Source: an uncultured Clostridia bacterium (GTDB lineage: Bacteria > Bacillota > Clostridia > TANB77 > CAG-508). Taken from it: DNA of 59,179 bases. A model generated the notes under the pieces. The model was given only the letters and a program-made list of their open reading frames with translations, did not search any database and was not told where the DNA came from. Positions 17,942 to 56,245 of this stretch are shown here, in pieces (position 1 is the stretch's first letter; each line of letters starts with the position of its first letter). Both the position numbers and the translations under genes were made by a program. The stretch spans positions 1 through 59,179 of the forward strand of contig CALXEV010000006.1 of the NCBI GenBank assembly GCA_944387425.1, read 5' to 3'.

Positions 17942-18160
17942 AAAAATAGAGCCCTCCCATACAAGGGCGAGCTGAACTCACGGTACCACCTTATTTATTA
18001 TTATTACTAATAACTTCTCAATAGTTTGTAACGCAACAACACGGATATTCTTACTTTTATTTCAGAATATCAACTCAAAAGCTACATTCCATTTACCTTT
18101 AATTTAGAAGTTCTCAGCCTAGACTTCTTTCTCTGTATAATAAGTATAAATGTACTCCTC
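17942..18160 (-). promoter_or_regulatory. T-box riboswitch of valS
   Basis: The minus-strand leader carries the T-box antiterminator core AAGGTGGTACCGTGAG (17977-17992), followed by a GC-rich terminator arm and a T-run ending near 17941. Upstream is a stem I region; a GUA triplet at 18094-18096 is a plausible valine specifier. Uncharged tRNA-Val would stabilise the antiterminator and permit valS transcription. Stem boundaries are estimated by eye. Confidence 0.88.
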
Positions 18161-18188
18161 TTTTTCTTCGTTTTTAGTTATATGTTAA

Positions 18189-30772: not shown

Positions 30773-30842
30773 TTTGGCAATTGGTACCGGTTCTTTTTTG
30801 CAATTTTTTTATTTTTGGCATTTGGTACCGGTTCTTTTTTGT
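30773..30842 (-). repeat. REP-like repeat, two units, between rfbD and rfbA
   Basis: Two copies of a unit that reads GCAAAAAAGAACCGGTACC on the minus strand, followed by AATTGCC or AAATGCC, separated by an A/T-rich spacer. Each contains the symmetric cores ACCGGT and GGTACC. The same unit recurs at 33880 and 56152. Confidence 0.75.
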
Positions 30843-31715
30843 CTATATTCCTAATTTTTTAGCTTCTGCTAAATATCTCTTTAGTCCATCTTTCCAATCA
30901 GGAACATTAATTCCATATTTTTTTAGTTTTTCTTTTGACATTTGTGAATTGTATGGTCTTTTAGCTTGTGTAACTTTCATCATTTCAATATATTCTTCTG
31001 TTGTTACAGGATTTACTTTGCAAGATATACCTTGTTCAGCAAGTATTTCTTTTGTAAAGTCATACCAAGTTGTATATCCTTCATTTGTTGCATTATATAC
31101 ACCATAAGGAATTTTCTTGTCAATTGCTTGATATATTATTTCTGTTAAATCTTTTGCATATGTTGGACTTCCATGTTGGTCTGATACTACATTTATTTCA
31201 TCTCTTGTTGAACCTAATTTTGTCATTGTTTTTACAAAATTATTTCCTCCTACACCATATAGCCAAGCTGTTCTAAATATGTAATATTCATCCATATTAG
31301 CTTTAATTCCTTCTTCACCATGTAGTTTTGTTTTTCCATATACTGTTACAGGTGCTTTTGGGTCATCTTCTTTATAGTCTTTAGAAACATCTAAATCTCC
31401 ACCAAATACATAGTCTGTTGAGATATGTACCAATTTTGCTCCAGTAGATTTTGCAGCTTTTGCTAAATTTGTTGGACCATCTCCATTGATTTTATCTGCA
31501 AGCTCATAATTTTCTTCTGCTTTATCTACAGCTGTATATGCTGCACAATTTATTATATATTCTGGTTTAGTTTTCATTACATAATCCATTACTGCTTTTT
31601 CATTTGTTATATCAAGTTCTGCTACATCTGTTGCTATTATTTCATTTCCTTCAGCAAACTTTTCTTTTACTTCTTTAGCTAACATTCCATTAGCTCCTGT
31701 TACTAATATTTTCAT
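30843..31715 (-). CDS. rfbD: dTDP-4-dehydrorhamnose reductase
   Basis: Last step of dTDP-rhamnose synthesis. The 290-residue SDR enzyme has MKILVTGANGMLAKEV, AAYTAVDKAE, STDYVFGG and YGKTKLHGE (Tyr-Lys catalytic pair). It is first in the operon, with a promoter at 31746. Rhamnose is used in cell-wall polysaccharides; no glycosyltransferases follow directly here. Confidence 0.95.
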   Translation of the reverse strand: MKILVTGANGMLAKEVKEKFAEGNEIIATDVAELDITNEKAVMDYVMKTKPEYIINCAAYTAVDKAEENYELADKINGDGPTNLAKAAKSTGAKLVHISTDYVFGGDLDVSKDYKEDDPKAPVTVYGKTKLHGEEGIKANMDEYYIFRTAWLYGVGGNNFVKTMTKLGSTRDEINVVSDQHGSPTYAKDLTEIIYQAIDKKIPYGVYNATNEGYTTWYDFTKEILAEQGISCKVNPVTTEEYIEMMKVTQAKRPYNSQMSKEKLKKYGINVPDWKDGLKRYLAEAKKLGI

Positions 31716-31885: not shown

Positions 31886-33025
31886 TTACGAGTTATTGAA
31901 CTTTTTTGCAAACATCTTGATTATAGATACGATACTAATTTTAGAACATTGTTTCTTCAAGTCCGGATAATTCTGAGCCCAGTTGTCAAATATCCTTTTC
32001 AGTAAATTTCTTAAATTTTTACTGTCACTTTCATCATACATTTCAGGATTCTCTGAAATGATTTGAGAAATCAGATTATTATATGTTATTTTTTCAAGAT
32101 GTATCCCAACCTCAAACGCTTTTCTTAGTGTAATTACATTATTAGGCATTCCTATGTTTGCCAAGAATGAATGTAATTGACCATCGAGATCTACATTTGG
32201 TTTGATTTTCTCTAGGGCAGGTCCAATGATTTCTTGAAGTGCTAATTCCTCATTAGAGCTTTTTGGGCAATTACTTTCTTCTGCTTTTGAACTAAAATCA
32301 AAAGTTATAGCAATCTGATTTAATAGCTCTTTAAGAAATTCAGGCTCAACTTTTCCTAAAACCTTGTCGAGTCTTCTAGGGTTAACATATTTAGACATTT
32401 CTAATAAAACGGTGACATCACTATTTTCAAGTATATTAAACGAATTACTATCGATATTGCTAGATTCCTTATCGATTGGAACTAGAAATAACGATCCATC
32501 AGTAGAAATATTGCATACAATAGCATATCCTCTACTGTCACTCATTTCGCCAATAGGATGCTTTCCAAAGTTTACTTGAACAACATCCCCTACAGAAACA
32601 TTTTTGACACGTAATTCGCTTGAGTTGGAATTAGAGTATGAGATTTCAGTAATCATTGTCCAAATATACTTCTGGATTTCTTCACTAGACATACCATGGC
32701 TCATTGCCCAAACAATAGTTTTGATAAATTTCTCGTTAAGCAAATTTTCAATATCTTTGTCAAAAAACTTAACAACTCTATCATTTTCGTTAAGTTCTGA
32801 TTTTTCTTGATTGGTCGTATTATCAACAGAAATAGATTCAATAACAAAGTGTTTGTCAATCACTCCAATAATTGTATCTATCACATCATTATTGACATCT
32901 TTGGCTGTTATAACTCCTTTTTCGAAGTCAATATGCAACCGACATGAAATTTCGTTAATTTCCTTAAGCAAGCTAGCAATAGACTCACTTTTCCATTTTT
33001 CGATTTTAAAAATCACTGTATCCAT
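31886..33025 (-). CDS. MazF/PemK-like domain protein with extensions, second operon gene
   Basis: A 379-residue soluble protein. Residues 1-68 form a small alpha/beta domain (VIFKIEKWKSESIASLLKEI) resembling the start of the upstream gene's protein. Residues about 141-245 look like a MazF/PemK fold: VSVGDVVQVNFG, RGYAIVCNI, FLVPIDKES and RRLDKVLGKVEPEFLKELL. A helical C-terminus follows. Conserved MazF catalytic residues are only partly evident, so it may be inactive or act as a partner of the upstream gene. It starts 18 bp after the upstream stop, with GGAGG. Composition is less AT-rich than eno or rfbD. Novel pairing. Confidence 0.55.
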   Translation of the reverse strand: MDTVIFKIEKWKSESIASLLKEINEISCRLHIDFEKGVITAKDVNNDVIDTIIGVIDKHFVIESISVDNTTNQEKSELNENDRVVKFFDKDIENLLNEKFIKTIVWAMSHGMSSEEIQKYIWTMITEISYSNSNSSELRVKNVSVGDVVQVNFGKHPIGEMSDSRGYAIVCNISTDGSLFLVPIDKESSNIDSNSFNILENSDVTVLLEMSKYVNPRRLDKVLGKVEPEFLKELLNQIAITFDFSSKAEESNCPKSSNEELALQEIIGPALEKIKPNVDLDGQLHSFLANIGMPNNVITLRKAFEVGIHLEKITYNNLISQIISENPEMYDESDSKNLRNLLKRIFDNWAQNYPDLKKQCSKISIVSIIKMFAKKFNNS

Positions 33026-33043
33026 TACTATTTTATCCTCCAG

Positions 33044-33724
33044 TTAATTATTTCTTTTAAGATCAAGTGTAATATCGATAATTTTTTGAACTTCATCCAT
33101 AAACTCTGGAGTCATTCTACCAATATATTTTCTCAATCTCTTTTTGTCAATACATTGGATATGGTCTGCTTCAATCAAGCCAGTGAGTTTTTTTCCAAAA
33201 TGATTAGGGTTAAAGTCTAACATATTATTTTCTGAAAATTCAACCATTAACTTAGACATGCCCCATTTTTGAATCTGACTAGTACATGGTAAAACAACAG
33301 TGTATCTAGAATTGGTGTTTATATCTTCATTTTCGACAACTATAACTGGTCTTAATTTTCCTTCATGCCATTGATTTGGTCCATTAAAATCAGAATAATC
33401 AATCCAACACCAAAACACTTGTCCACGCTTTACATTTGGGAACAATAAGTCATTACCAATTAAAGCATTGTCTGGCAGTGGCTCATTGTTAGAGTTATTA
33501 GATTTTTCGTCTTCCAATGTCTCTAACCATTTAACATCACACGGAAAGTTCTGTACAGAAATAATCTCGATATTATCTAGTAATTCTTTGAAAAGCTCAT
33601 CTGAAACTTTACCATATAGTGAAATGGTATGGTTTGAAACATACTTTTTTCCAGAATGGTTAGATAATATCTTAGTTATCCGAACAATGTCTACATCTTT
33701 AACTTTTAGCTGTAACAAATGCAT
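33044..33724 (-). CDS. PemK/MazF-like toxin candidate, first operon gene
   Basis: A 226-residue protein starting MHLLQLKVKDVDIVRITKIL (ATG behind AAAGGAGG). Residues 1-63 are a small alpha/beta domain also seen in the downstream gene; residues about 99-226 match PemK/MazF endoribonucleases: VKRGQVFWCWIDY, LRPVIVVENED, VVLPCTSQIQKWG and KRLRKYIGRMTPEFMDEVQ. MazF enzymes cut mRNA at short motifs. No RHH or AbrB antitoxin precedes it, which is unusual for mazEF. A promoter and leader hairpin lie upstream. Confidence 0.65.
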   Translation of the reverse strand: MHLLQLKVKDVDIVRITKILSNHSGKKYVSNHTISLYGKVSDELFKELLDNIEIISVQNFPCDVKWLETLEDEKSNNSNNEPLPDNALIGNDLLFPNVKRGQVFWCWIDYSDFNGPNQWHEGKLRPVIVVENEDINTNSRYTVVLPCTSQIQKWGMSKLMVEFSENNMLDFNPNHFGKKLTGLIEADHIQCIDKKRLRKYIGRMTPEFMDEVQKIIDITLDLKRNN

Positions 33725-33801
33725 ATCCTCCTTTGAGTTTTGTCGTATCAAATTTTTAATAGCTTATAAAAAATACCTCCTTTTGATAACATTTCTTGAT
33801 T

Positions 33802-33874
33802 TCTCAGAAAAATAATCCCGAGAAATTTACAAGATAATCTACATAATTATACCACTTTTCATAAATTTTATCAA
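33802..33874 (-). promoter_or_regulatory. promoter and leader hairpin of the MazF-like operon
   Basis: TTGATA (33869-33874), 17 bp and TATAAT (33846-33851) on the minus strand. The leader contains an ATTTCTC/GAGAAAT stem (about 33807-33833). The -35 lies five bases from the repeat at 33880. Confidence 0.7.
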
Positions 33875-33879
33875 GTAGC

Positions 33880-33960
33880 AAAAAAGAACCGGCACCAATT
33901 GCAAAATGGCAAAAGAGAACCGGTACCAATTGCCAAATGGCAAAAGAGAACCGGCGCTAA
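33880..33960 (+). repeat. REP-like repeat, three units, beside eno
   Basis: Three tandem units read on the plus strand as AAAGAACCGGCACCAATTGC, AGAGAACCGGTACCAATTGC and AGAGAACCGGCGCTAATTG, spaced by AAATGGCAA-like links. Orientation is opposite to that of the other two arrays. Confidence 0.8.
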
Positions 33961-33963
33961 TTG

Positions 33964-35295
<1,332 letters not shown>

Positions 35296-35973
35296 TTATA
35301 TTTTAGTGAATTTATCACTTAATATCTGATTACGTATTCTTTGAGTTTCTTGCTTGTTTGCTAAATATTCAACTCTCTGGGTATTTTTGAAATCTACTGT
35401 ATCATATGCTACTACATTTATTTTTCTTTTTAAATAAATTCCAGAAATATATTCCTCTGTTTTTGTGTTATCTTTACTTATATCATTTTCATAATCAATT
35501 ATTGCTCTTTTTTCTTTTTTACTATGTGGTTCAATATGTAAATATTTATACCTCCAGTAAATATGATGATTATAATATGAATCCCCTCCGCCAGTTATCT
35601 TATTATAATTATATTCTATTTTAAACTTGTTGTTTTTTATAGATATAGTTATGTTTGTCCAAACTTTTTGATGACTATTTATGAATTCATCTCTTAGCTC
35701 TTTTATTTTGTCATACAATAATTCTACTAGCTTTAGATATTCATCTTCTTCAATATCAAATTTGGAAGGTACTTCATATACATTTATAAATTTTCTTTTT
35801 AACAGTCCTTTAGGCAAGAAGTAAAAATACATCTCGCCTGTTTGGACTTTTCCAAGTCTATCAATAATTGAGGCATATAAATACAATTCGTCCCACTTTC
35901 CTGGCACAATATAAAAGATTTTTTTCTGTATTTCTTCATATAATTCTTTTATTTTTTTTGTATTTATTAACAC
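35296..35973 (-). CDS. YezG/DUF600-like protein, orphan immunity candidate
   Basis: A 225-residue protein of the YezG/DUF600 type, usually antitoxin/immunity for LXG or other polymorphic toxins. It matches in KIKELYEEIQKKIFYIVPGKWDELYLYA, GEMYFYFLPKG, YEVPSKFDIEEDEYLKLVELLYDKIKELR and KVWTNITISIKNNKFKIEYNY. The C-terminal 70 residues are extra. It sits between gpmI and eno and would be cotranscribed with them; no toxin is near. Confidence 0.65.
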   Translation of the reverse strand: MLINTKKIKELYEEIQKKIFYIVPGKWDELYLYASIIDRLGKVQTGEMYFYFLPKGLLKRKFINVYEVPSKFDIEEDEYLKLVELLYDKIKELRDEFINSHQKVWTNITISIKNNKFKIEYNYNKITGGGDSYYNHHIYWRYKYLHIEPHSKKEKRAIIDYENDISKDNTKTEEYISGIYLKRKINVVAYDTVDFKNTQRVEYLANKQETQRIRNQILSDKFTKI

Positions 35974-56151: not shown

Positions 56152-56245
56152 GGGACATTTGGTGCCGGTTCTCTTTTGCCAAAATGACATTTGGTGCCGG
56201 TTCTCTTTTGCCAAAATTGCATTTTGTACCGGTTCTCTTTTGCTC
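56152..56245 (-). repeat. REP-like repeat, three units, between aspartate kinase and pfkA
   Basis: Three tandem units of about 33 bp, each read on the minus strand as GGCAAAAGAGAACCGG followed by YACCAAATG or ACAAAATG. The first unit can pair with the end of the aspartate kinase gene (GTACTGGTTCT with AGAACCGGTAC). Confidence 0.8.

Follow-up and report, generated by a model that had tools for sequence, protein, structure and literature searches.

What controls a MazF-like protein when none of the usual antitoxins is encoded beside it and its partner gene specifies a second protein of MazF fold? In the MazF systems described so far, the antitoxin is of the AbrB, the RHH or another unrelated type (PMC2701414). 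The window analysed here, a stretch of 59,179 nucleotides from an uncultured Clostridia bacterium with a genome of 1.4 Mb, carries two consecutive minus-strand genes between those for enolase (33964-35271) and RmlD (30843-31715). Gene A (33044-33718, start assigned by homology) encodes a MazF/PemK protein, and gene B (31886-33025, 379 aa) a MazF-fold paralogue with an altered active site. The answer that we prefer, at just short of an even chance, is that the two would form a self-contained toxin-antitoxin-like module in which B controls A.

An earlier note on this locus, made from the DNA letters alone, had described a tandem MazF/PemK-like pair at 31886-33724, devoid of an AbrB, RHH or Phd antitoxin and equipped with its own promoter, a leader hairpin and a double terminator. 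Both open reading frames are located there, but the start of gene A is most likely the TTG at 33718 (224 aa) rather than the ATG at 33724 (226 aa), as homologues begin at an equivalent MLQL and the spacing to the Shine-Dalgarno sequence (33727-33734, minus strand) fits better. The other elements of that description stand. No AbrB, RHH or Phd gene adjoins the pair, whose flanking genes are those for enolase and RmlD, and the leader upstream of A contains no minus-strand ORF longer than 41 aa, so that no candidate antitoxin ORF lies there. A consensus scan places a promoter at 33874-33846 on the minus strand (TTGATA, 17 nt, extended TATAAT), and its -35/-10 layout is conserved before the other A-B operons. 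Past the end of B, a sequence scan reveals two terminator-like hairpins on the minus strand, at 31871-31841 (14 bp stem followed by a T run) and 31793-31764 (13 bp stem). PADLOC and NCBIfam scans gave no useful match. Elsewhere in the window, a YezG-like immunity protein (35296-35973, minus strand; PF04634, E 2.9e-29) is encoded between the enolase and phosphoglycerate mutase genes, in a glycolytic neighbourhood, and a T-box leader is found at 17960-18177 (minus strand; RF00230, 121.7 bits).

Sequence and model comparisons identify the product of gene A as a clear member of the MazF/PemK family. Its MazF/PemK domain (33047-33442), which holds the catalytic Arg and Thr, matches the Pfam PemK_toxin profile with an E-value of 5.5e-17 (62.4 bits for a cut-off of 23.1), and the AF2 model of a full-length A relative superimposes on B. 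subtilis MazF with a Z of 16.6 and an rmsd of 2.0 over 115 residues. The corresponding domain of B (32279-32608) is degenerate and reaches 16.6 bits with the same profile (E 0.0095), under the cut-off. Comparing the PemK profiles of B and A with hhalign yields a probability of 97% and a score of 61, versus at most 15 for column-shuffled controls. The AF2 model of the window's B matches MazF structures with a Z of 10.7 and an rmsd of 2.9 over 95 residues, with weaker Foldseek E-values (best 8e-3). The MazF fold proposed for both proteins in the earlier note is thus borne out by structure prediction, and B appears as a diverged MazF-fold protein, related by profile and fold only. The input alignments contained 15 sequences for the A relative and 16 for B, and the models have mean pLDDT values of 73 and 74, respectively; given a pTM below 0.4 and poorly defined linkers, they do not predict the domain arrangement.

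Arg25 and Thr48 are required for MazF activity (PMC7354611). The equivalent Arg is present in 20 of the 21 A proteins, as is the Thr, with a Ser in the remaining one, and the window's A has both. At the Arg position, B proteins display a His (17/30) or, in three of 30, an Arg, while the Thr is kept in 20 of 30. The window's B has the Arg, with an Asp at the position of the Thr, and some other B members have lost the His or the Thr. The active-site region of B has a conserved motif of its own, GEisGgHVhAIVC...VPITK, in which the Glu is kept and usually the His/Thr. Since the Thr is retained in two thirds of the B proteins and the His, present in most, could act as acid/base, the B active site is altered rather than plainly dead. 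The contrast between the Arg and Thr of A and the altered B fits the earlier suggestion that one protein of the pair, itself altered, blocks the other. When PemK domains are placed in a tree, the B proteins make up a separate clade, whereas A groups with canonical MazF proteins; only this split is used, because many forks are weak. Several genomes of the same family also encode highly similar solitary PemK proteins of 197 aa with a helical N-terminus (L218 5417-6010, L219 3662-4255, L220 6085-6678), which likewise have a His in place of the catalytic Arg.

Searches of relatives, the class, the order and a genome collection brought together 21 A-B operons with A first in all of them, so that homologues do not always occur singly and the pairing idea of the earlier note stands; these counts are not phylogenetically independent, and they come from one lineage and from fragmentary assemblies, most of the genomes being MAGs and some loci lying at contig ends. 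The operons sit at different chromosomal sites with flanking genes that vary by locus, and the distance between A and B ranges from -29 to +18 nt, except in G586, where the B start is frameshifted. Within the sampled genomes they are confined to one order of small-genome Clostridia, and those relatives whose records carry a name belong to uncultured Clostridia, the majority from animal guts. The B profile finds matches in 32 of 385 genomes of the order, some of them weak PemK matches only, and a 398-genome sample of the phylum gave no match at E 1e-6 except in the window's own genome. Where E-values were obtained on small sets of ORFs, they do not apply at genome scale. No full-length relatives turned up in phages, plasmids or viral contigs. 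A weak match on a phage-like contig (G076, L033) was set aside, as it is a PemK-like protein among tail genes and not a pair. The pairwise distances of A follow those of B (r 0.82, Mantel p 0.0002), the pattern that joint inheritance of two genes should produce. That the pair travels together through these relatives suggests that B, and not a usual antitoxin, controls A.

The two genes differ in how they occur alone. Some ten B genes stand without an A next to them. Searching 385 genomes with the C-terminal domain of A returned 14 strong matches, all within A-B operons, a search that is blind to short A proteins such as the window's. The N-domain search of 247 genomes retrieved eight pair members, one weak match at chance level and one A without an adjacent B. 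This lone copy, the only one found (G545, L316 5212-5838), shares the same leader and is catalytically altered, the active-site Arg being replaced by Lys and the Thr by Met; its genome also holds a complete A-B pair elsewhere. In G433, a stop codon interrupts A while B is intact. An asymmetry of this kind would be expected if A were a toxin and B its controlling partner, but the cases are few and related by descent. The roughly ten solo B genes and the altered state of the sole lone A argue for the toxin-antitoxin-like module, as does the conservation in A of the catalytic Arg and Thr that B has altered.

The main rival, in our estimate unlikely and already raised in the earlier note, is that A and B are two subunits of one regulated endoribonuclease, in which B would help to form the RNA-binding groove or would provide an additional active site of the His type. 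B would then be needed for activity or specificity, and the module would be a regulator, not a toxin-antitoxin pair. The Glu, the usual His/Thr and the distinct conserved motif of B are in keeping with such an enzyme, as is the PemK domain that B retains in 20 of 21 pairs, and the DNA-binding-like tails described below suggest a regulatory role. The one paired B that lacks the PemK domain while keeping its N- and C-domains (L127) speaks against this reading, as do the solo B genes, the loss of the Thr in the window's B and the loss of the His or Thr in other members. The L127 protein also bears on the module with B as controlling partner: if B neutralises A there, another domain must do so.

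It is less probable that A is regulated by other means, through a MazE acting in trans or a transcription factor as proposed for MazF-mx/MrpC, and that B is an independent accessory protein. Control of a solitary MazF by a transcription factor is on record, since MazF-mx of Myxococcus xanthus has no MazE and is tied to the DNA-binding regulator MrpC (PMC4803016). A canonical 118-aa MazF (L299 1994-2350; C20:5499-5834 in the window's own genome) also has no adjacent MazE, and most of the relatives that were searched have one like it. A MazF without an adjacent antitoxin may thus be normal in this lineage, so the missing antitoxin beside the pair is weak evidence. Against an independent B stand the strict A-then-B order, the overlap of the two genes in most of the 21 operons and the correlated distances. 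MrpC is not linked to its MazF and its part as an antitoxin is contested, whereas in the A-B pair the MazF paralogues themselves include a DNA-binding-like domain; in concept, MazF-mx/MrpC is the nearest precedent for the pair.

Both proteins open with an N-terminal domain, at 33542-33718 in A (profile 83.5 bits; topology from the AF2 model of a relative) and at 32810-33025 in B, where two helices forming a linker follow (32624-32773). The earlier note had described a similar 65-residue alpha/beta domain in both. The similarity holds for the topology, which is b-a-b-b-a-b in both AF2 models, but not for the sequence, where hhalign (0.8%) detects none above shuffled controls. The N-domain is found in all 21 paired B proteins (one frameshifted) and in six of the ten solo B proteins (Fisher p 0.007, a value that ignores the relatedness of the genomes). 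Directly upstream of one solo B lies a free-standing 71-aa ORF (L209 7595-7810) that resembles the B N-domain by a weak profile match.

The long helical tail noticed in B turns out to be a domain (31895-32254), and its relation to a Spo0A-like domain in A goes beyond the earlier note, as do the promoter-proximal motif and the covarying leader arms described below. In A, a C-terminal domain of about 120 residues is present in 20 of 21 proteins, and the window's A, the sole one without it, is an unusual member that has lost it. When compared with a Spo0A_C profile derived from these genomes, the A domain gives an hhalign probability of 89% and a score of 37.8 (shuffles at most 12.2), and its profile retrieves receiver-Spo0A_C proteins in a genome search, ranked below the A members, with E-values down to 4.6e-9. 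These matches point to a detectable homology with the Spo0A_C DNA-binding domain. We call the domain Spo0A_C-like because the Pfam scan reported no PF08769 (Spo0A_C) match among the seven A proteins scanned. A structure search with the A model listed no Spo0A or ferredoxin-fold partner, as the MazF domain fills the list. The B domain is a weaker relative of that of A (hhalign 50%, score 28.6; shuffles at most 17.6), of which the window's B keeps a diverged version. Each A-B operon retains at least one C-domain, in A only in four, in B only in the window and in both in the rest; this retention is suggestive only, since the losses are so few. The A proteins resemble Spo0A_C response regulators in this profile relation, and divergent receiver-Spo0A_C proteins are encoded several times over in these genomes, but A has no receiver domain. 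Spo0A_C proteins are expanded and divergent in the window's genome (C23, C24, C13, C45, C18) and in many relatives, some with two Spo0A_C domains (L229) or no receiver domain.

Alignment of the leaders shows that the operons have in common, upstream of A, TTGA...TATAAT followed by ATTTACATAATTTTGTAA. The element TTTACATAA is conserved at pair promoters and lies between the -35 and -10 in G038, G397 and some solo B promoters, a shift into the spacer that points to a DNA site and not an RNA site only. The window's version (33825-33846, half-sites TTTACA and TACATAA on the plus strand) is diverged, with no exact match to TTTACATAATTTTGTAA. As the signature of a wider regulon the motif was rejected: in 15 genomes, TAATRTTWACATAA has 27 matches, eight of them at pair promoters, versus 31 for the reversed control. 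Unlike in Spo0A_C regulators, no relaxed 0A-box (TGNCGNA) occurs upstream of the 20 A-B operons outside the window, and the single partial match is in the window.

These departures of the window's copy raise the possibility, in our view improbable, that the pair is a decaying remnant with no present function in this genome. The window's A alone among 21 lacks the C-domain, its B lacks the catalytic Thr and its promoter motif is diverged; however, neither ORF is broken, the Arg and Thr of A are conserved, and the promoter, leader hairpin and terminators are all present.

Between promoter and gene A, the transcript contains a stem-loop (33794-33834, minus strand) with outer UCUUG/CAAGA and inner AUUUCUC/GAGAAAU arms and a folding z of -3.3 in the window. 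The stem-loop is real and conserved, and its arms co-vary: in 16 of 27 leaders the fold is more stable than in dinucleotide shuffles (p<0.05), and the mean energy is -10.3 kcal/mol for cognate arms versus -4.1 after swapping (permutation p 5e-5). Some leaders have no clear hairpin. RNAalifold on the MAFFT alignment of the leaders returned no consensus structure, probably because arms are aligned by sequence, and the arm-swap test was used instead. After the stem-loop, 50-75 nt before the A start, most operons have a Shine-Dalgarno-like AAGGAGG (33776-33783, minus strand, in the window) with no conserved ORF behind it; a leader peptide was ruled out, as frames and start codons are not conserved. 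It resembles the STAB-SD of cry3A, a 5' leader sequence that stabilises mRNA and does not start translation (PMC4113751), yet it is preceded by a covarying stem-loop. Direct repeats of 31-32 nt with the core GAACCGGYRCYAATTG form short arrays at 33878-33963, in the intergenic region by the operon, and at 56154-56243 and 30778-30834; the core has 27 exact copies genome-wide in both orientations, and the reversed control pattern has none. The array at 33878-33963 was considered as a ToxI-like antitoxin RNA and rejected, as the repeats are dispersed genome-wide and it lies upstream of the promoter. That the leader RNA itself is the antitoxin of A, as in type III systems such as ToxIN, whose toxins have a MazF/Kid-like fold (PMC5086642), is highly improbable: a covarying stem-loop does lie just 5' of A in most operons, but it is a single hairpin with no tandem repeats and no terminator before A, it is not clear in every leader, the same leader precedes solo B genes, and the operon has a second protein.

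Returning to the module in which B controls A, the following mechanism can be proposed. A would act as an endoribonuclease, which we hold to be very probable, and would probably be bound by B, via the N-domain and/or by B occupying one place in the MazF dimer. With the same fold and an altered active site, B would hold A in check, a step to which we give an even chance. The repressor role of an AbrB, RHH or Phd antitoxin would fall to the Spo0A_C-like domains that form part of A and/or B, with the conserved promoter motif as their presumed binding site; this step could equally well prove right or wrong. The N-domains unrelated by sequence, the window's A with no C-domain and a B that is perhaps not dead count against the module. 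Like MazEF/PemIK (Kid-Kis) type II systems, it has a MazF/PemK fold with the catalytic Arg/Thr, in a two-gene operon of patchy distribution at varying loci. Unlike them, it has no AbrB, Phd or RHH antitoxin and a partner that is itself of MazF fold, the toxin comes first and the partner second, and both proteins have an N-domain in addition and, in most cases, a Spo0A_C-like tail. In the open-access literature, we found no papers on the A-B arrangement or on a MazF domain fused to a Spo0A-like domain.

Whether the pair embodies a new antitoxin principle, with a MazF checked by a MazF-fold paralogue and with toxin, inhibitor and Spo0A-type repressor contained in two proteins, we regard as possible and rather doubtful. 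In type II systems, antitoxin and toxin generally have no common ancestry; if B is a controlling MazF-fold paralogue, the pair would show the origin of an antitoxin by toxin duplication and, if true, would provide a simple system for testing the silencing of MazF by hetero-oligomers. Through the fusion of MazF to a Spo0A-like domain, an RNase module would be connected with a family of regulators that has expanded in these gut Clostridia with small genomes.
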